In this document: in pieces, positions 7,655 through 64,000 of the stretch
How positions within the stretch are numbered: the stretch's first letter is position 1
How the letters are laid out: each line of letters opens with the position of its first letter
Origin: Dromaius novaehollandiae
Lineage: Eukaryota; Chordata; Aves; Casuariiformes; Dromaiidae
Assembly (NCBI RefSeq): GCF_036370855.1
Contig: NC_088130.1
Coordinates: 70,966,941-71,030,940, forward strand
Length of the DNA: 64,000 nt
Direction of reading: 5' to 3'
The notes under the pieces: generated by a model
The model's database searches: none
What the model saw: the letters and a program-made list of their open reading frames with translations, nothing else
What the model was told of the DNA's origin: nothing
Made by a program: the position numbers and the translations under genes

Positions 7655-7713
7655 ACCTGCTCTTTCTCTCTGTCTGCCCCCCCCCCCCCCCCCCCGGCCA
7701 CCCCGCTCCCCAG
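7655..7713 (+). promoter_or_regulatory. ONECUT2: 3' splice site of ONECUT2 terminal exon with C19 tract
   Basis: The acceptor ends in CCCCAG at 7708-7713. A candidate branch point CTGAC has its A at 7655, 59 nt from the exon, which is a little farther than usual. Between them is a short T/C-rich run, then 19 uninterrupted C residues (7677-7695). The pyrimidine tract is therefore almost entirely cytosine. The boundary is fixed by the reading frame: exon phase 1, with CA completing an Ala codon before Cys-Lys-Arg-Lys, as in other ONECUT2 proteins. Confidence 0.85.
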
Positions 7714-8000
7714 CATGCAAACGCAAAGAGCAGGAACCGAGCAAAGAGAGGAGCAACTCCCAGAAGAAATCCCGCCTGGTTTTCACCGACCTGCAGCGCC
7801 GAACACTGTTCGCCATCTTCAAGGAGAACAAGCGCCCGTCCAAGGAAATGCAGATCACCATCTCCCAGCAGCTGGGCCTGGAGCTCACCACCGTCAGCAA
7901 CTTCTTCATGAACGCGCGGCGGCGCAGCCTGGAGAAGTGGCAGGACGATCTCGGCACGGGGGGCCCCGCCGCCGCCCCCAGCACTTGCACCAAGGCGTGA
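7714..8000 (+). CDS. ONECUT2: ONECUT2 terminal coding exon (homeodomain and C-terminus), partial gene
   Basis: This encodes the last 94 residues of a one-cut-class transcription factor, ending at TGA 7998-8000. The segment begins CKRKEQEPSKERSNSQ. From about its residue 17 comes the divergent homeodomain, whose recognition helix reads VSNFFMNARRRSLEKW. That helix has the Phe48/Met50 pair characteristic of ONECUT proteins in place of the usual Trp48/Gln50, and keeps Asn51. The exon ends STCTKA, the ONECUT C-terminus. The tail KWQDDLGTGG favours ONECUT2 over ONECUT1 or ONECUT3, and FECH next door agrees with ONECUT2 synteny. Known family role: nuclear DNA binding to ATTGAT-like sites with cut domain plus homeodomain, in liver, pancreas and neural development. 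The cut domain is in an upstream exon outside this window. The GC content (CpG-rich to about 8050) matches its surroundings. Confidence 0.97.
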
Positions 8001-42064: not shown

Positions 42065-42484
42065 CTGAAAGACAGTTAATTAAAAATTCGACATGAGCAA
42101 ATCCACTTGCATAAAATCAAAAAATGCATTAATGTGTGTTACAGACTAGTGAGATTGCAGTCTGATGGATTCACAGTTTGGCACTCTGCTTTTTAAGCAC
42201 CATCTCCCTATGTTTCAGTGGAAAACCCCATTTTAGAGCTGCATTGGCATCATATCTTAAAAGAAATATTTTGTGAAGATGACTACAAATGAATAAAAAA
42301 TTGTTTTTCTTTGTCAAAGCAAACTTCTAAACTAGACTTTTAAATATTGCAGTAAAAGAAAACATTGCAGTTTACAGATTACGTGCAGGGATTTCTGGTT
42401 TTGTTCTTAAACCCAAAATACTTTAAAAATATTTGAAGACACCCATAATCTAGTAGGAAACACAACTGCAAACTTCTACAACTA

Positions 42485-42592
<108 letters not shown>

Positions 42593-42973
42593 TTAACTCT
42601 GTTAGAACCTTCATTAGTTATCTTTCAAAATCCTCTATTTTATTCAGAATTTGCCCCAAAATGACTGAATTAAATTCAATATCGTGTTTTTCAATAGAGA
42701 TAAAGTGACAATAAGGCAAAATTTCACTCTGCTGCCAAATATCCAATGCTTCCTTTTTAGTTAGGATAGTAGCAGCTTAAAGAGTTCAGTCTACTAAGAC
42801 AAATTCCCACCTCTTTTGTGCTGCTAAAAACTCGTTTGAGCCCAGCCAGTTCAGATTCATTCTGAATTTACAGAAAAAGAAAATTTGCCCCAAATCTCAT
42901 AGCAAAGAGTAACTACAAAGCAAAATTTCAAAAGATGAAAAATACTTTGAGAGCACCACTATCCAAGCAATTA

Positions 42974-43192
<219 letters not shown>

Positions 43193-44069
43193 TCATTCTG
43201 GGAAAAAAAAATTAAAGGAATTAATCATTTCTTTAAGCAGGTCAACACAAACTAGGTTATTTTTAACAACATCAAATATGTCCGTCTATTTTTGATAATA
43301 CCTCTCACTTTATCTATTACATTTTTATGAAGACACATGGTCCTCCCATTTAAGTCCCCCCGCAAAAGAGTGTCTGGGCTGGCTTTAAAAGAGATTCTTG
43401 TATCAAAATGAAAGTTGTTTGCAGTTCAATAAAATCCTAATCACTACTGCACAGGTTTTACCTGTCTTTTAAAGTAGTAAGCATTTTCAGGATGCAACAA
43501 AATCTCTCATCACTTTACTATCCATGAAGTATGAAGTAGAACAAAACAACAATGGTGTGTTAGGCATAACGCCCTTGAGATATAAGTTACTTGTACTACA
43601 TAATTCTGATGAAACAAATGTTCCTTGGTGTTTGCAGTGGTAATAAGAACAAAGTAATGGAAGCAGTCTTCCTGAAGAATAATAAGGCCTGTTTGGATTA
43701 AGTTCTTCTTATTAAGAATGTCTATTTCATAGTGACAACTTCTGAAAACATTGCTCAGAGATCCTCAAAAAGCAACACAGAAATCCAGTGGGTACTTGAT
43801 TCTTCTTTCTGACAGATAGAGAGAGATGCTTATCTGAATATTATGAGATCACAGGTTTTCTAGAAGCCACACCAAAAATCTACTTTAAAATTAGGCAAAA
43901 TATCTCAAAGGCAAGAATCTGTGGAAAAAGAGTATCTGAAAAAGCTGAATATAAGCAAGAGATCAGGGTTCTATTACAGCAGAAATATTCCTGAAAACAG
44001 CAAAAAGGCTCTGACATTATGACAAAGTTGGAAGAAAAGATCGTAAACTCTAACAGCTGAAGAGCTTTA

Positions 44070-46104
<2,035 letters not shown>

Positions 46105-46203
46105 AGACATCGGGAGCGAGTGAGCTGAGAAAAGGATAACAACATCTTTCCTTTTGTCAGGTGGAAACAGATCCAGTTCTTTCTGTATGTGTTCAGCAAA
46201 GCA
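46105..46203 (-). CDS. FECH: FECH coding exon 7 (catalytic His)
   Basis: Codons 227-259, beginning [20 protein letters not shown] and ending [13 protein letters not shown]. His254 in FSAHSLP (human His263) is the conserved residue proposed to accept porphyrin protons or bind iron. 99 nt, phase 0. Acceptor CTTAACAG, donor GTGAGT. Confidence 0.98.
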
Positions 46204-48356
46204 CTGTTAAGATAAAAGGAGCAAAGATCTGAATCAGGAAATGCTAAAAAGTTAGTATACACTCATCAATGACTCAAGACAAGCACCTTCCGTGTTCTAG
46301 GTTGCTTTTAGAACTTCAAAATGCTGAGACCCCGCACGTATACTGTTCAGTATGTAATTACACACAGTGCCCAGTCCCAACACCACCAAATGCCCCTGTC
46401 AACTTTCGATCATTCCAATGGCTTTTAGATGCTGGTAACAAACTGAAAGAATATAGCCAATCAAACCAAACTATCCTTTACTGCCCCCAAAATGGCTCCC
46501 CAACCAGGCAGGCCACACAGATGCAACTGCTAGGGCAAGGGAAGAGAAATGGGTAAACAGGGGCAGAGAGACATCCTTTTTAACAGCCCCATTACACTTA
46601 AACTAGATTAAAGGAAATATGCAAACACGGCCTCAGAGAAGAACCTGCTTCATGGATTGTTGAGAAAAGCTCCAGAGAAGAACTTTATTCAGAGAACTCT
46701 ACCCTGACCTCAGCTCCGAGGATAACATGGGAGACAGAATCTCTGTCAATCAACACTTGAAAACATTCTTAGTGCTACACAAAAAAGTAATGAAACACTT
46801 CTGACCTTACACTCCCACCACCAGCGTTCGAACCGAGAACCTGCATATACACATGAATACTGCATATACACAGCTGGGCTGAGGGAACGCACAGACAGAA
46901 AAGCAGCTGCCATCACAGCTTGCACATGCTGCTGCAGTAACGGGAAGTAGCTGTGTGGTCTTTTCTTAGATATTTTACAGTGAAAAATGGGGCAGAAACG
47001 TTAAAAAAATTGAAATGTAATTTCCATTTCAATTTTATAATCAGGGACTGAGCCAGCCATCCACTTACAGCTTCCCTTGGGCTTAAGGAAATACACACTG
47101 GTTGGCTTATTAAAAAAATAAAAGCACATGTGTACACGCTGTCTAATGGAAACTATTATGTTGTAGATTCTCCAAATATACCAAGGGTTCCTAAAGTCTG
47201 CTGAGGTGTTTCGCTGAAGGCAGGAGGAGTGCCTACTGACAAAGACAGACCTCAAGGTAGTATCACACTCAATCAGCTTGTCAGGGGAACTTCATGTAGT
47301 GCAGGCAGTTCCACTTTTCTGTCCTTCACTTATTTTTACAGTTTGTTCATCACAAGAATTGCTAAATCCAAGCCAGAAAATAAGCATTGAGCTCTCCAGC
47401 AAAGAACAAAAAAATGCCGTTTTCTCTGAAAACTAAGGAGTAGGAAGGTTTCTCTCCATTGCTCCTGCCGCAACCATGGCTAGAATTATGCACCCCTTTG
47501 TCAGATTCTCATGTGGCAGCAAACGGATGTGACCTGTATCTGTATCGACTACAGACCTGCTTCAAGCGGGAAGCTGGACTAATGACCTCTAGAGGTCCCT
47601 CCCAGTCCGCACCACTATGATAGCATAATTTTATGTTTTTAAAACAAGATGTACAGGGTGCTCACTTTCTCAAATCATCATGCCAAAGCATCTGGCATGA
47701 AATAATCATCCCTTATAATTTCAGGTATAGATATACAGTAACGAAATACGTCTTGTGTACAGAATGCATCCTCAAACTGAAGCATTCTTTTTACTCCCCC
47801 ACCGCCTTAAAAAAAAAAAAAAAAGAAAGAAAAACACAACATAGTCTAAGCCACAAAATAGGTTCCTCTCCTTTTAGGATATTCTGTAGCTAAAAGCCTT
47901 TTAAGTCTTGTAAGAAACTAAGACTTGACCTAAAAAAGTGATTCCTCAGAATGTTTCTGTTGCGTAAAATTATTCAGTGTTTTTACTGGCAGCAAATATT
48001 TCTAAAAAGAAAACTCAAATGTACGTATTTACTTTACGAGAGCTCTTTATTGTTTTAAAGCCAGCTGTCAATGTGAAGATACCAAGTTTCTCCTACATTA
48101 ACCAAGCTAAGAAAACCCCAAGGAATGTCAACTTGATCACATAGCCATAACAATGGGATGGTTGTAAATGAGTACATCTGACTCCTGGATGCTGAAGCAT
48201 ACCCACACTGTACGTGCAGAAGAACTGCAGCATTCTTTTTGCAGCTGAAATAGTGACTTTAAAAAGGGTATTTCAGGGTACCTCCATATCAAAACTGTTC
48301 AATTTACATGTCTCATTCTGACTGCCAACTTCAAAGATTCTCATACAGATCCATAC
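46204..48356 (-). other. FECH: FECH intron 6, with CR1 fragment
   Basis: 2153 bp of AT-rich DNA. It contains a CR1 LINE 3' fragment near 47520-47630 and an A-run near 47810-47835. A frame of 95 codons at 46269-46556 on the plus strand is not recognisable. Confidence 0.75.
47520..47630 (+). mobile_element. CR1 LINE 3' end fragment
   Basis: The sequence GCTGGACTAATGACCTCTAG, then AGGTCCCTCCCAGTCCGC and ACTATGATAG, matches the familiar CR1 3' end (GACTAGATGACCTCTGGAGG, then TCCCTTCCAACC, then ATTCTATG-type octamers). It is diverged and truncated at its 5' side, with no open frame. CR1 is the dominant LINE of birds and other reptiles, which supports the host assignment. Confidence 0.75.
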
Positions 48357-48463
48357 CTGAATAAGAAGGGGATGTGTGGGCCATCGGTCAATTATACTCC
48401 ACTTCATCTTTGGCTTCTCCCCCTTTTTATTATAGTAGCGATAAATAGCATTTAAACTGCTTC
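48357..48463 (-). CDS. FECH: FECH coding exon 6
   Basis: Codons 191 (split) to 226: [19 protein letters not shown], then [17 protein letters not shown]. 107 nt. It starts with GA, completing a Gly codon from exon 5, and ends on a codon boundary. The RWPTHPLLI motif is conserved in ferrochelatases. Acceptor TTTTTCAG, donor GTATGG. The intron upstream is 535 bp (48464-48998), with nothing recognised. Confidence 0.97.
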
Positions 48464-48972
48464 CTGAAAAACCGAGAATTAAGAACATAAATTCATCCAA
48501 GGCATTAATAACCTGTGAGATGAGAACAATTTTGTAGCAAACTATTTTAATATTTTAAAACACTACATATTTAAAATACAACTGTAAATCAGAACTGAGA
48601 ACATCAGAGGGGAACAATTATTTCATAAAGTCCAAATAACGCAAAAGCAAAGAACAACTTGCTAAGTTCTTTAACTAAAGCACAGTTATTGCTGTAGTTT
48701 CCATGGAGAAAGTTTACTCAGTTGTGTTCCTGGACTTTCAGTTTATTTTATCTTAAAATAATAATGGCAACATAATGCTATCCTTAGTAAAAAATCTCTA
48801 ACGAAAATTAGGAATTATAATAGAATACAGAAAACTCTGAGTGGGCAGTGAAGCCAACTGGAAAGGGTACTTTGATGAACACAGGATAGATTTGCATTAA
48901 CACTTCACATACTGCATGAGGCTCCCTGGTTTTGGCTCACAGACACGTGGCTACATTCACCTCTGCTGTTCA

Positions 48973-55320
<6,348 letters not shown>

Positions 55321-55469
55321 CAGTGTGAGGAGACATTCTATCCAGCAGTTTCACCATGGCTTCTCCCTGCACCGCCGTCCACTTTTTGATCGGTGATCCG
55401 CCTCCAATCCTGCTGTACTGTTCCTGGATTCTTGGGGTGCGGCGTTTGGCAATGAATGGTGCTAATTTA
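55321..55469 (-). CDS. FECH: FECH coding exon 4 (porphyrin-binding lip)
   Basis: Codons 96-146 (both split), beginning [19 protein letters not shown] and continuing [19 protein letters not shown], then [10 protein letters not shown]. The AKRRTP and [12 protein letters not shown] blocks are hallmark substrate-pocket segments. 149 nt; skipping it would shift frame. The acceptor TGCTTTAG follows a purine-interrupted pyrimidine tract, and the donor is GTACTG, the poorest of the gene. The human intron 3 acceptor is likewise weak and clinically important. Confidence 0.98.
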
Positions 55470-55697
55470 CTAAAGCATTCAAAAGCCACACATGTCAGTA
55501 CCATAAATAACCCCAATCATCTCCCTCTTCCCCACAGACCTCTAGTGGACTGGGGTTTCTTTAGCCATCTCTCTGAAATATAGACCAGCAACTATAACTA
55601 GTCATTAATTGCATCACTTGTTTAATGTTATATTCTATCGCCCTTCCCAAATTTGTTAGCTGACAATAAACCATCGTTTGCGTTTAGAAGTTAAGAT

Positions 55698-55744
55698 AAC
55701 AATCTTGGCATTCCTATTTTAACAATCTTGGCATTCCTATTTTC
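55698..55744. repeat. 23-bp tandem duplication in FECH intron 3
   Basis: Two adjacent, apparently identical copies of a unit starting AACAATCTTGGCATTCCTAT, inside the 454-bp intron 3 (55470-55923). The copies look recent because they have not diverged. Confidence 0.9.
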
Positions 55745-55922
55745 AACACTTCCCACAGGATTACAAAACTTTTTCTTGCGCTAATTAAAAGACAAGACAA
55801 TTAAAACAGATTCTCATTTTTAAGAAATGCTGGTGTACACAAAAGCTCTTAAAGTCTGAGCATACAGCTAGGACAGCAACACTCAGCACTCACCCTAACA
55901 CAGGAGTTCCCGCCGTTTCTTA

Positions 55923-57915
<1,993 letters not shown>

Positions 57916-58027: not shown

Positions 58028-61000
58028 CTGGAGAAAAAGATAACAATACCTTGTTAATCTCGCACCAGGCTGAGGGTTCTCTTCACCAGACACACGCTAG
58101 TCCCTCAACAGCTACACAAATACTCTTGGCCATGCTGTGCTATTTGGCATTTTATCCCTTACACTCCAGGTCCTGGAATCAGAATATTTCATGAAATTTC
58201 AAGTGTTTGTCTTTCTTTAGATACAGTGTACAATAACAGCCTTTTAGATACTAGGCAATAACATAAAAAAGAAAAAGAATCCTGTGGGGTTTTTCTTCTC
58301 CAAAAGCTTAATTAATTTTTAAACTCCAAATATGAGTTTAAAACATCTGGTGACAAAACAATAGAAACCACCTAGGGCTAACACCACTAGGGAAAGAAAA
58401 TAAGTACATCAAGCTGCATAATTTATTATGGAACACGTACACCTAAGCTAGCTCTGAACAGGTTAAGTATATCTACACCACCTGTAGGTTAGACTTTCAT
58501 TAGTCGGGAGTCCTCAGCAAACTTTCAGCAATGTAGGGCAGCACCGTGGCCCATATACAGTTCCTTACTTTGCCCCATACTGAACACAGCAAGCAGCAGT
58601 TTCAGCATCCATTTACCCAGGGATGCAGGAACCTTCTTTCTCATTACTTGAGCTGAACTTCTTCCATTACTCCTGGACTCCGGCCTCAGCCAAAATATGG
58701 CCCCAAAACAGAGGACGTTTTACTTCCCACATACTGCTTACAGTGTGCTTTTTTAAAGCATGTTCCGCTCTTCTTTAGGAGTTCATACCATTAAAACATA
58801 TTTAAGTGCAACAGTAGTGCGAACTGCCCGAGATGAAAAAACTTGTCCAATTCTGCATCTCAGGCTCCCCAGCAGTATTCTGGTGTGATTACTTCCCTCC
58901 TCAGACTGTAGGAGTTCCAGCAGCAAACGAGCCCCGATAGCGTGGAACTCCGCAGGGGCAATTTACCCCGTAAGATCATCTTATGATTCACAGTCCTCTA
59001 ATAAGATGCTAAACAGATGCTGAACACCCTTAAGACCTGCTGAAATCAATGAAAGTGGAAAGTGTCTCGAAAATACAGCTTCTTACTTGGGATTAGCAGT
59101 GTGTACTTGTGGAAGCATGTATCTGGAATGATATAAAAGGCTGCGATCTAAGCAATTTCATGCAATTTTAACATTGCTGCTGCCTGAAAGATTCTTTTCC
59201 TCTTCCAAAGTTTATATTCTTCTTCCAGTTCTCAAGATTAGCAATGCCTCAAAAAAATAATAGTATGTGCAAAAATTACATAGAACAATAAAAAGAAGCT
59301 TCAGTGGTAGCATTCATCCTGCACTGTACATGAACACTGTACAGCACTGGTTTTACGTAACTAAAGGTGAGGTTCGTGCGTCTTTCTATCCGCACCATAA
59401 AACATATGCAACAAAATGCACAGGATTTGCAACGACGATGATTCCATCTTGATGGAACATTGATAAAAGGGCTTCTATAAATTTTAAAATTAGCATAAGC
59501 ACTTCAGCCTCTGGAAGCAAGACCCAATAAAATTCTTCTCCCACATACACACTCATTTCAACTGCTCTCAGTAAGTTTCCAAGCAGGTGGGAGTACAGCA
59601 ATGCCTCTTTACAAGCAATGCAACATTAAGTTACTTTGTTGTTACAGCAGTAACTGAAAATTGTGTTATATTCACCAAACAGTAAGGAAAAAAGCTCCCA
59701 GTTTACGGAGTACTTAAAACTCACTGCACATTTTAAATCACAATACATATTTGTATTATGCATGCTTACAGCATTAAGATAACTGTGGAACTGACTTAAA
59801 ATTGTATTTTTTATTCATATTTTGTTACAGTATCTAGTGTTATTTTTAAAATGCAACCTGTGGGTTCTTAAACAAAGATGATTTTTACATGAAACATTTA
59901 AAAGAAAAAAAAAAAAAACTTACTTAAACTCCTGATAGGAAAATACCAAGTAAGATACCAGCAAACCACAAGTTTCTTACAAAGGTAAAAAATCCCAAAG
60001 CCTCACAGTTCTCTCTTTAGATAAAAAAAAGATCATTATACCTTTTCCTTCTCACACGCTCAGCTATATCAAGCTAGACTTTCTTCAACGTCTCTAAAGA
60101 ACAGTTTGTAAAATGTATTGCTGGGACACATTTTTAAGAATACCTTTTAGACTTAGATACATACCAGAATTTTCTCAAACTCATCTGCACAAATGCACAC
60201 ACTACCATGATCCACCTGAACACACAGCATCCCTTGAAATAAACCCCTGATGGCCTTCTCAGCTTAAAAGATGATCTGGGGCGTGTGAATGCCGCTGAAA
60301 TACCTGCCTGATCAGCATTTAAGGAGCAGATTCTCCAGATATACTTTTTAAAGAATAAAAAGCCCACTGAGGATGTACTGAGTCCCCTTCTGCAGGACGA
60401 GTAAAGCTTCAGTTGTTAGTCACGCACCGCTTGGAAAAAAACCCAAGCGACCTTGCAGCTCGGGGACCAGTCCTCTATCAGCAGAGCAAGCATCGAGCGC
60501 AGCTTCGGTTAAGCGCTCGGCGAGTTGAGACCGGGACCAAAAGGCCCTCTTAATCCACAAGATTTTACTCAGGACGCTAAAAGGAGCCAAATCACTTTTT
60601 TTTTTCTTTTGGTCACAGGTCCCGAGCTAATTAAAGGAGAACACTGACGCTGGAGCCTGCTTTGCAGCCCTCAGCGCCCCGCCGCAGTCCCCACGGGGCC
60701 GCGCAGGCGGCAGGCAGACACGCAGCCGTCTCCCTCCAGCCCACCCGCGCCCGCCGCTCCCTCCCAGCCCGCCGCGCTCGCCCGCCCCGGCCCCTCCTGC
60801 CCCGCGCGCCCGCCAGAGCGGCCGGGCCGGGCCGGACTGTGGGGGGGCGCCCGCGCCGGCACCGCCGCGGCTGATGGCGTTACGCAAAGGCGCTGCCCGG
60901 AGGGAGCCCGTTGTGTAACGCGGTCCCGGCGGCGACGCCGCGCCGGGCGCCCCCTCCGCTCCGCTCCGCTGCCTCCCCGCCCGCCCGGCCGGGCCCCCGG

Positions 61001-61217
61001 CTCTGCCCCCCGCGCCGGGCAGGGGGCGGCGGGAGGACCCCGCCGGCCGCAGCGCCCCGCTCCCCGCTCCCCGCCCCGGCGGGCCGCCCGCCGCAGACGG
61101 GCGCCGTCCCCCCACCCCCCCCGCGGCCGGCCCGGCCGCCCCGGGGGCAGCTCCCGGCTCCGCCGCCTGCGGGCAGCGAGCGGGCCGCGGCCCCGGCACC
61201 CCCCGCGGGAGACTCAC
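58028..61217 (-). other. FECH: FECH intron 1
   Basis: 3190 bp. The 3' three-quarters are AT-rich. The last 560 bp next to exon 1 (from about 60650) are CpG island with very high GC. First-intron erythroid regulatory elements are possible but none can be assigned. Confidence 0.75.
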
Positions 61218-61272
61218 AGCGCCACGCCGCGCGCCCGGCGGCAGCGGCCATGTTGGCGTGCGCGCGGTGCAT
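61218..61272 (-). CDS. FECH: FECH coding exon 1 (start, mitochondrial presequence)
   Basis: Codons 1-18 plus one base: MHRAHANMAAAAGRAAWR, then donor GTGAGTC. Human FECH begins MRSLGANMAAALRAAG, so the ANMAAA core fixes the frame and start. Met1 (61272-61270) has G at -3. Met8 (61251-61249) sits in a stronger context (AACATGG), so some initiation at Met8 is possible; both keep the basic presequence. The frame upstream stays open in GC-rich DNA but shows no further similarity. Confidence 0.92.
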
Positions 61273-61552
61273 TCCCTCAGACCGCGGCCGCCGCGCTCCC
61301 CGCCCGCCCCCGCGCCTCCGGCGGCCACGGGCAGCGCGGGACCCGCCGCCGCCTCGGCCGCCGCCCCCCTGGCGGCCGCCCGCCCTTCCCGCCGCGCGGA
61401 CATGCGCTCGCCGCGCCGCCCGCCAGGGGCCGCCCGGGGGCGGGGCGCCGCCGCCGCTCCGCCCGCCGCTCCGGCGCTGGGGGCGGGCCCTGGGCGCCCG
61501 GCGGGGCAGGGGCCGCGGCCGCGGGGGGGCCTTGGCGCCGCGGGGCGACGTG

Positions 61553-61970
61553 TAACGGCCCCAACGGCCGCGGGGCGACCTGTAACGGCCCCAACGGCCG
61601 CGGGGCGCTGTTAGCCCCGGGGGAGGGGGGAGGTGTAACGGCCCCAACGGCCGCGGGGCGCTGTTAGCCCCGGGGGAGGGGGGAGGGGTAACGGCCCCAA
61701 CGGCCCCAACGGCCCCAACGGCCGCGGGGCGCCGTTAGCCTCAGCGCGGGGAGGACGTGTAACGGCCCCAACGGCTGTGCGCGGGGTGGCAACGGCCCCA
61801 ACGGCCGCGGGGCGCCGTTAGCCCGCGCGCGTGTCTGTGAAGGGGAGGGTGGTAACGGCCCCAGCGGCCGCGCGAGGGGTGGGGGGGTTGGTAACGGCCC
61901 CAACGGCCGCGGGGCGCCATTAGCCCCGGGGTGGGGGGGAGGTGTAAGGGCCCCAGCGGCCGCGGGCGGG
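61553..61970. repeat. GC-rich minisatellite of YAACGG units upstream of FECH
   Basis: Tandem units built on TAACGGCCCCAACGGCC, followed by GCGGGGCGC(C/T)GTTAGCC and a G-rich spacer. Unit starts at 61553, 61583, 61636, 61689, 61760, 61790, 61853, 61892 and 61945 (the last with TAAGGG) give periods of 30, 53, 53, 71, 30, 63, 39 and 53 bp. The 71-bp unit carries two extra copies of the 9-mer CCCCAACGG. YAACGG (c-Myb consensus) occurs 17 times on the plus strand and twice inverted as CCGTTA. Frames through it read as Arg/Gly/Trp repeats and are not coding. Confidence 0.93.
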
Positions 61971-61989
61971 GTCTAACCTGGTCAGTCTG

Positions 61990-64000
61990 CAGCTCAGGGC
62001 TAGCGGGCTAGCGGGGCAGCTCCCTGCAGTGAGCACCCCTCTTCTCTACAGAGCCCAAGGGGAGAGGCACAGGTGCGTCTCAGCACCTCCAGGTGAAGTA
62101 CCTTTTTACCTAAACTGTGCTACCTAGGTCCTAACCCTTATATTTTTCACAGACACCCACTGTAATTTGGCCCATTACTTGTCTCAGCGTCTTCATTTCT
62201 TTTCTCCTTCTACATTCAAAAGTCTTCCCTACTGTTCAGGCCAGGTCAGTAAGTTCGCAGCTGTTTGGATCAGCTGTTTTCTTTCCAGTCAGGGCAGTGC
62301 AGCTGCTCCGTTTTGCCGCTTTTTAGTTACGGGGTGCTGTCCACAGTTGGGCTCTTGCTGTGGGAGCTGCCGTTGCAGTGCTTGCAGGGCCCGAGGAGGG
62401 TGGCCATCACCAGCGCTCGCGCTTTGCCTCCGACTTCCCCTTTGGATGTCTGGGGTCTGTTCAGACTCGGCTCCCTCCTCCCTGCACAGCAGCTCCGTTT
62501 CTCTTCTCGTCCGTGTTTCCTTCTCGGTAAATGCACTTCCCTCTCCGTGTAGCACTGTTTTGCTATTTGTTTCAGTTCCTTTTGTACTTTTACTGTTTTG
62601 ATGACCTTCTTTTGCAAGTCCAAGTTAAACCAAAAAATAGCCTAAAATTAATAACACTTGAGGCAGACTGAGCCGTTTTGTATGAGCCCATACCTGCAGC
62701 CTGATTTCGCTAAATCCTAAGCATGAGAACAGATGTGTTCCTCTTGCCTAGTGGCTGGGGACTGACGAGTCTGGCACAGCTTTGATTAACAAACCTCATC
62801 ATTTAGCTCCAATATCAGAAACAAGCAACTAGAAGCTTTGCCAAGGATGTAGGGCATGTCGGGAAGGTTATAGTTGTGTAAGAAGGAGCTGTTCTCATGA
62901 TGAGGGAGTAGCACAATTAGGGCTCAAGACACTCTGAAAGCACGAATGAATGCCAAAAAATATTACTAACGAATTGCAAATATGAATTACAAGCAACGTT
63001 GAAGTGCCACAAATGGGAGCGTCTTGATTCTGCGCTGTGTTTATGAAGAGAACAGGTCCAAGCACAAGGCTCCGAGCAGCAGGCTGAGCTGGCGAGAACA
63101 CCCCGGGGTTCTTGCGCTCCCTCAGATCACTCAGGTTTTTTGGCTTATCTATAAACAAGCTGATATTACATGATGTATTTCTTGGGGCTGCTTATGTGCA
63201 CTTTACACACAGCCTGAAATTTAAGCCACAGACTACGTTCATTCAGGGGCCTGAGGTATCTAGTAATTAACTTTGTCATGTCTTGGTGGAAACGTACTGT
63301 ATGCGGGAAAACAGGCATAAATGTGCTCAAATGCAAGTATTATTTGACAAGGGTCGACATAGTGATTGTACCATGTCAGTAAATGTGTACACCTTATAGA
63401 GTGCTGTTGTGGTCAGCAATAGCCATGTTTACTTTCCAATAGCCTTGTTTAATTTCCATTTAAAAGAATGTAAGAGAAGAGTGAGTTAGAAGGCCAAATG
63501 TTTCCTTTTAATGTAACAGATACTGCTAAATGCAAATTTATTCTGAACTAAAAAAGTCCATGTTTTGTTCCATTAACATCAAAATAATGCATTTCTCCTT
63601 CACTGTAATGAGTTGCTTTCTTTTCTCACGGATCAAAATCTCACCAGAATAGACGCATTCACACAGAAACTCTTAAGGTCAACAAAATAATATCTGTGGT
63701 TGGAAATGGATTATTGGAATTTTTTTACCACTGATAACATACACTTTTCAAGTGAGGCCACAGTTATATTTTGCACATTTTGACTGTAACAGTACAACTT
63801 TGGATAATGTATGAGTTTTATCAAAAGTTCAGTAGCTGGTGTTATAAAGATGCTTAGCCCAGACGTGATATTCCCTTACTTGTATGAAAACAGTTGTATC
63901 AGATAAAATACTTCAATACAGATTTATTCATCTGCATGCAAAAGAGGCTATACTGACTTAGCAACACTGTAGTAGTTTAACTTGTTTCCAGATTTGTGTC
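61990..64000. other. Flanking DNA upstream of FECH, no gene recognised
   Basis: GC falls quickly after 61990 and the last 1.4 kb is AT-rich. A 144-codon plus-strand frame at 62167-62601 is Ser/Leu/Cys-rich and unrecognised. In vertebrates NARS1 lies beyond FECH on this side with its 3' end facing the window. A minus-strand AATAAA (plus TTTATT) near 63922 could belong to it, but nothing confirms that. Confidence 0.5.

Follow-up and report, generated by a model that had tools for sequence, protein, structure and literature searches.

The array of YAACGG sites upstream of FECH in the emu genome can be read, with a probability slightly above even, as a series of close-packed Myb response elements that forms a locally amplified member of a class of arrays found throughout the genome. 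This class consists of oriented YAACGGHH sites, with 9-10 bp as the commonest steps; no triple with 8-bp steps occurs, and the loci that were read lie in CpG islands. Where the adjoining gene was recognised, the array is located near the gene start or in the first intron.

The window, i.e., the whole stretch of 64,000 nucleotides that was analysed, contains the coding exons of FECH on the minus strand, two of which match the Pfam family Ferrochelatase (PF00762), and, in the open reading frame at 7656-8000, an ONECUT2-like homeodomain coding sequence that was recognised by eye. The first FECH exon begins with MAAAAGRAAWR..., which we take to be the known FECH N-terminus. The sequence-only reading had described about 19 YAACGG sites (17 plus, two inverted) upstream of the FECH start and a 9-bp spacing of adjacent sites within units, and both descriptions proved accurate: the motif listing for the 64-kb window contains 19 exact sites in 354 bp, 302-655 bp upstream of the FECH ATG and within the FECH CpG island, and the step between neighbouring sites inside the units is 9 bp, with four sites in a row at one place (Table 1).

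The array is mostly made up of site pairs with the sequence TAACGGCCCCAACGG, distributed over some nine units 30-71 bp in length, and its plus-strand sites are followed by CC or CT in 17 of 17 cases. Tandem Repeats Finder (TRF) returned overlapping rows over 61537-61775 with periods of 30, 53, 71 and 9, and a repeat search found a 36-nt unit in nine copies with a start-to-start spacing of 30-71 bp. With these periods, the array is a minisatellite in the sense of head-to-tail copies of a 10-100 bp unit.

Table 1. The YAACGG array and the FECH gene start; positions refer to the window.
Feature	Position	Strand	Basis
Array of 19 YAACGG sites	61553..61906	+	17 plus, 2 minus, motif listing
First pair, TAACGGCCCCAACGG, 9-bp step	61553..61567	+	Motif listing
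Two near-identical 53-bp units, one 9-bp pair apiece	61583..61688	+	TRF 98% match, layout
Run of four sites at exact 9-bp steps, TAACGG then CAACGG x3	61689..61721	+	TRF and motif listing
Inverted TAACGG within unit (GCCGTTAGCC)	61732..61737	-	Motif listing
Two more 9-bp pairs, 30 bp start-to-start	61760..61804	+	Motif listing
Second inverted TAACGG	61815..61820	-	Motif listing
Lone site (partner decayed: CAGCGG) and last intact 9-bp pair	61853..61906	+	Motif listing
Last unit, decayed, TAAGGGCCCCAGCGG; both cores lost (TAAGGG, CAGCGG)	61945..61970	+	Sequence read
Recognised FECH coding exons (approximate extent; exon 1 apart, at 61251)	42400..56100	-	PF00762 on two exons
FECH start codon, MAAAAGRAAWR..., then donor GTGAGT	61249..61251	-	Sequence read
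FECH CpG island (approximate); the array forms the upstream edge, with declining GC and CpG	60601..62000		200-bp windows

The 64-kb window as a whole shows no enrichment of YAACGG, with 39 sites compared with 35.2 expected. For the array itself, the chance level was taken from an order-2 model trained on 23 other CpG-island loci (see below), which gives 2.65e-4 per position and about 0.23 expected sites in 434 bp on both strands; the 19 sites seen exceed this by far, as in a homotypic cluster of PyAAC(G/T)G matches beyond chance, but they are not 19 independent events, because most were copied from one duplicated unit.

A dispersed satellite or transposable element was rejected as the identity of the FECH unit. 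In a search of the genome (1.468 Gb, 271 contigs) that skipped simple repeats and very common words, a 106-nt query from the unit matched the FECH loci alone, on the contigs numbered C33 (the FECH contig) and C35. The sequence-only reading had held that the same repeat at many unrelated loci would speak against it; the unit was found at FECH only, and what recurs is the arrangement of the motif, at 47 loci with varied spacers. The C35 copy of the 64-kb window is identical to C33 at every letter shown, all 454 differences being N, and may be the same assembled sequence. The array matches common to the two contigs are collinear (C33 44.8-71.0 Mb, C35 58.5-84.9 Mb, offsets 13.70-13.88 Mb), which fits, and suggests, a Z and a W chromosome with a large pseudoautosomal region that would include FECH and ONECUT2; for the C35 arrays at 12.4 and 21.8 Mb, no C33 counterpart is present among the matches listed. 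Large pseudoautosomal regions of about 20-59 Mb are described for many palaeognaths in the available part of PMC6735826.

The array query consisted of three AACGG cores at exact 9-bp steps with free spacers, and the genome match counts for all words and steps are lower bounds. Three YAACGG sites in this arrangement gave at least 79 matches at 47 loci on 21 contigs when the FECH copies were counted once; a recount of all 79 matches gave 48 places with the two FECH copies kept apart. For the set of 47 loci, one or two registers were kept at each place, which amounts to 52 of the 79 matches. Besides FECH, 23 loci were read, which came from the first 30 matches (contigs C1-C7) and are not a random draw; all 23 are GC- and CpG-rich, with a GC content of 0.52-0.81 and a CpG observed/expected ratio of 0.83-1.14 in 1-kb windows. 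Their printed flanks, compared by eye and unaligned, look different, save those of five tandem copies on C5. Long YAACGG runs with 9-bp steps were also seen at C13:2688254-2688428, C17:13043330-13043388 and C30:1181899-1182090. Contig C1 carries 25-bp and 24-bp satellite-like repeats that hold YAACGG (C1:450193-450597 and C1:85.81-85.86 Mb), which are apparently unrelated to the CpG-island arrays.

The arrays might instead be mutational by-products, namely functionless GC-rich 9-bp tandem duplications in CpG islands, in which YAACGG was copied merely by accident. Such an origin would be in line with the FECH array, which clearly consists of a duplicated unit, and with the presence of further 9-bp repeats on C31 and C206. 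However, the same process would be expected to leave other CpG words at many scattered places, and the three same-letter CpG control words that were tried show a different picture from the 47 loci on 21 contigs. At 9-bp steps, ACGAG gave two matches at two loci; GAACG gave 13 matches, all at one place of about 5 kb on C31 and with an identical spacer throughout; and CGGAA, which is the ETS core, gave 46 matches at 16 places. Fourteen of these places belong to C31 and C206, have near-identical spacers and were taken for satellites; the remaining two lie elsewhere. Since the matches of GAACG and CGGAA fall mostly into satellite-like blocks whose spacers are nearly identical, the earlier suggestion that the Myb match is a by-product of a GC-rich satellite is weakened. 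Its counterpart, that a tandem repeat has built a homotypic Myb array, gains support. The satellite-like 9-bp repeats on C31 and C206, such as GAACGGGCC and CGGAAAGGC, contrast with the promoter arrays.

Reversed control words, which lose the CpG, gave no match for YAACGG at 9-bp steps, and 65 for ACGAG, 7 for GAACG, 32 for CGGAA and 1 for YAACTG; for YAACGG at other steps they gave 3 (8 bp), 9 (10 bp) and 13 (11 bp; motif 17), and 28 in the one-mismatch search, all of which are counts that still include any satellites, because their places were unlisted. The frequency of some of these words (65 matches) is a point in favour of a by-product. With loose spacing (0-25 bp), 2273 matches of the reversed word stand against 1516 of the motif, totals that are unusable because they include satellites and because the reversed word exceeds the motif.

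The lack of 8-bp triples is not predicted by a mutational by-product either: three YAACGG sites at 8-bp steps gave 0 matches genome-wide, compared with 47 loci at 9 bp, 27 at 10 bp and 12 at 11 bp (17 matches). A spacing spectrum of 115 neighbour pairs from 53 non-satellite loci (C1 and part of C2), for which 66 of 100 listed rows were kept and the 34 that represent satellite blocks or repeated registers of C1 and C2 were dropped, has its peaks at 9 (16 pairs), 10 (17) and 14 bp (13). The empty 8-bp class could result from the lack of room between 8-bp sites, yet 7-bp pairs are present (6 of 115), and the common 14-bp step is not predicted by one-turn phasing. Neighbouring sites within 400 bp have the same orientation in 34 cases and opposite orientations in three, 18 of the 34 coming from two loci, and this bias also fits tandem duplication.

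The spacers provide a further distinction. Among the 94 spacers of the 47 loci, the first base after the core is C in 56, T in 35, A in three and G in none, and the second is C in 63, T in 25, G in four and A in two. The absence of G directly after the core is notable because the sequence is GC-rich, and it fits the extended consensus YAACKGHH that Weston reportedly described for chicken c-Myb in 1992. By this consensus, the HH expected in a homotypic Myb cluster follows the core at 17 of 17 plus-strand FECH sites and in 90 of the 94 spacers at the 47 loci, the latter thus obeying an extended rule YAACGGHH. Only 16 of the 47 loci have two identical spacers; at the other 31 the spacers differ and the cores are intact, which speaks against passive copying, and 30% of the spacer positions vary from one unit to the next. 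Drift of the cores at the spacer rate would predict 2.3 times as many one-mismatch as perfect arrays, and 40 one-core-mismatch arrays were found compared with 79 perfect ones; this comparison assumes neutral spacers, which according to the HH rule they are not quite, the one-mismatch matches are partly register shifts of perfect arrays or chance, and overlapping perfect matches are not independent. Taken with these observations, a mutational by-product appears rather unlikely to us, although it has to be taken seriously, and Myb-site arrays remain the preferred reading.

The sites might also be read by a different CpG-requiring protein with a YAACGG core, for example, a MYPOP-like SANT/Myb factor or another CpG reader. 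Every locus read is CpG-rich, and it is the CpG form of the site that recurs: YAACTG, a word that Myb also binds and that is not CpG-depleted, gave only 11 matches at nine loci genome-wide with 9-bp steps. Our own prediction, which is not part of the strict definition, had been that YAACTG, as the other accepted Myb core, would form such arrays as well, and their scarcity counts against the Myb reading. However, the rarity of YAACTG arrays may just reflect that arrays arise inside CpG islands, and the HH after the core matches the extended consensus of c-Myb, so that a different CpG-requiring protein is considered improbable.

The genes beside the arrays were named by eye from first exons, which biases the naming towards conserved N-termini; ten of the 24 loci read (23 and FECH) were named, four of them by eye alone. 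Pfam matches identify DNAJC9 and a PGAM-type phosphatase, presumably the paralogue PGAM1; ECD (Pfam SGT1) and PLA2G12 have matches that are below the family cut-off, and EPC1/2 has a PDB sequence match. Further neighbours are, as we assume, USP12, RSPO2, SAAL1 and an ITPRIP-like gene cluster. The 17-mer pair without a full array was found at an importin 7/8 gene and at a second locus, which we take to be ISCU. The distances to the ATG range from about 33 bp on the upstream side (PGAM) to about 530 bp within the gene (RSPO2), and in nine of nine cases the arrays lie within 655 bp of the recognised ATG, a limit that stems partly from the 650-700-bp search.

Two of these places show repeats of their own. 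Five tandem copies about 5.8 kb apart at C5:6866167-6889559 (L052-L056) each carry a large YAACGG array, presumably at the apparent start of the ITPRIP-like gene; the copies have no Pfam match. Upstream of the PLA2G12-type gene, C4:21971581-21971887 (L008, L048) is a minisatellite with the same 17-mer core in a different unit, apparently an independent amplification of the FECH-type site pair.

The recognised genes are a broad mix and not erythroid. This bears on the earlier proposal that a c-Myb array tunes FECH in erythroid progenitors, for which the position in the FECH promoter island and the Myb consensus can be cited. The same arrangement occurs beside non-erythroid genes, and the open literature on ferrochelatase and c-Myb names no such regulation in the titles and abstract openings among the matches listed. 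We therefore regard an erythroid c-Myb array as quite improbable, and the link to c-Myb, erythroid cells and heme finds no support, given the broad mix of other genes and a core site that, according to the available text of PMC4514710, is common to all three vertebrate Myb proteins. Because the recognised genes are so broad, A-MYB (male germ cells) or B-MYB (cycling cells) is favoured over an erythroid role of c-Myb, and the sequences suggest a putative switch common to the arrays rather than a blood-specific one.

An action via DNA structure (hairpin or G-quadruplex) or via RNA, in place of protein sites, is disfavoured and seems very improbable. The unit does hold inverted TAACGG...GCCGTTA segments and G-rich filler, and a G-quadruplex motif lies within about 200 bp at 14 of the 23 other loci. 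However, the single-strand fold of the FECH array is no better than that of shuffles (z 0.84), for which reason a hairpin or other structured DNA was rejected there, and G-quadruplex motifs are absent from the FECH array at the G3 threshold. An RNA-level element is disfavoured because the orientation of the arrays to the genes is mixed (sense at five and antisense at four of the nine recognised loci).

If the FECH array is a row of Myb response elements, a YAACGGHH pair with a distance of 9 bp would have been duplicated locally, together with GC-rich filler, to some nine units that now form the upstream edge of the FECH island. Each site might then hold one Myb-family protein, with about one helical turn between neighbours, and an 8-bp step would leave no gap between 8-bp sites. 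Adjacent Myb proteins could lead to a higher local occupancy and to the presence of co-activators at the promoter, and a longer array might thus produce a stronger or more robust response. A wider generalization is possible but tentative, and we would not yet call it probable: in palaeognath, perhaps in all, birds, YAACGGHH every 9-10 bp, not 8 bp, in one orientation and within the CpG islands of broadly expressed genes, could constitute a promoter code that is read by a row of Myb proteins with one per turn, and its strength could be gained or lost by local duplication, as at FECH.

Binding of Myb proteins to the arrays would mean that one word at a strict step marks dozens of CpG islands, that the spacing rules are directly testable, that a natural copy-number series exists within a single genome, and that tandem duplication can turn a pair of sites into a strong promoter element, as at FECH. 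If Myb proteins do not bind, the arrays represent a striking sequence-specific mutational pattern in bird CpG islands.

Homotypic clusters of transcription factor sites and promoter VNTRs are well known, and they contain many site copies near the transcription start, partly derived from tandem duplication. The emu arrays differ from them in that 8-bp triples are missing, 9-bp triples are numerous, and separate arrays of one word are spread over the genome. No description of 9-bp-phased Myb arrays was found in the available parts of the open literature searched.

The target promoters of A-MYB (MYBL1) are a related case. In mouse testis, peaks with the Myb consensus lie near transcription start sites, and in rooster testis A-MYB peaks overlap promoter marks, including 21 of 23 H3K4me3 peaks at 3'UTR piRNA genes; phased multi-site arrays are not described in the available parts of that work (PMC8514520). 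A further resemblance is offered by the chicken, the Myb proteins of which bind PyAAC(G/T)G and have clusters of sites at several promoters; in roughly 3 Mb of chicken sequence, 250-bp stretches with six or more AACG or AACTG motifs occur at a frequency of about one per 25 kb (PMC2018721, as far as available). The Gas41, Adora2B and Mcm4 clusters, at promoters and replication origins, are like the emu arrays in being bird promoters with several PyAAC(G/T)G sites. However, a single site of the Mcm4 cluster is exact and the others deviate by one or two mismatches, and a fixed step is not described in the available parts of the same paper (PMC2018721), whereas the emu arrays have exact cores, repeated every 9-10 bp in one orientation within CpG islands.
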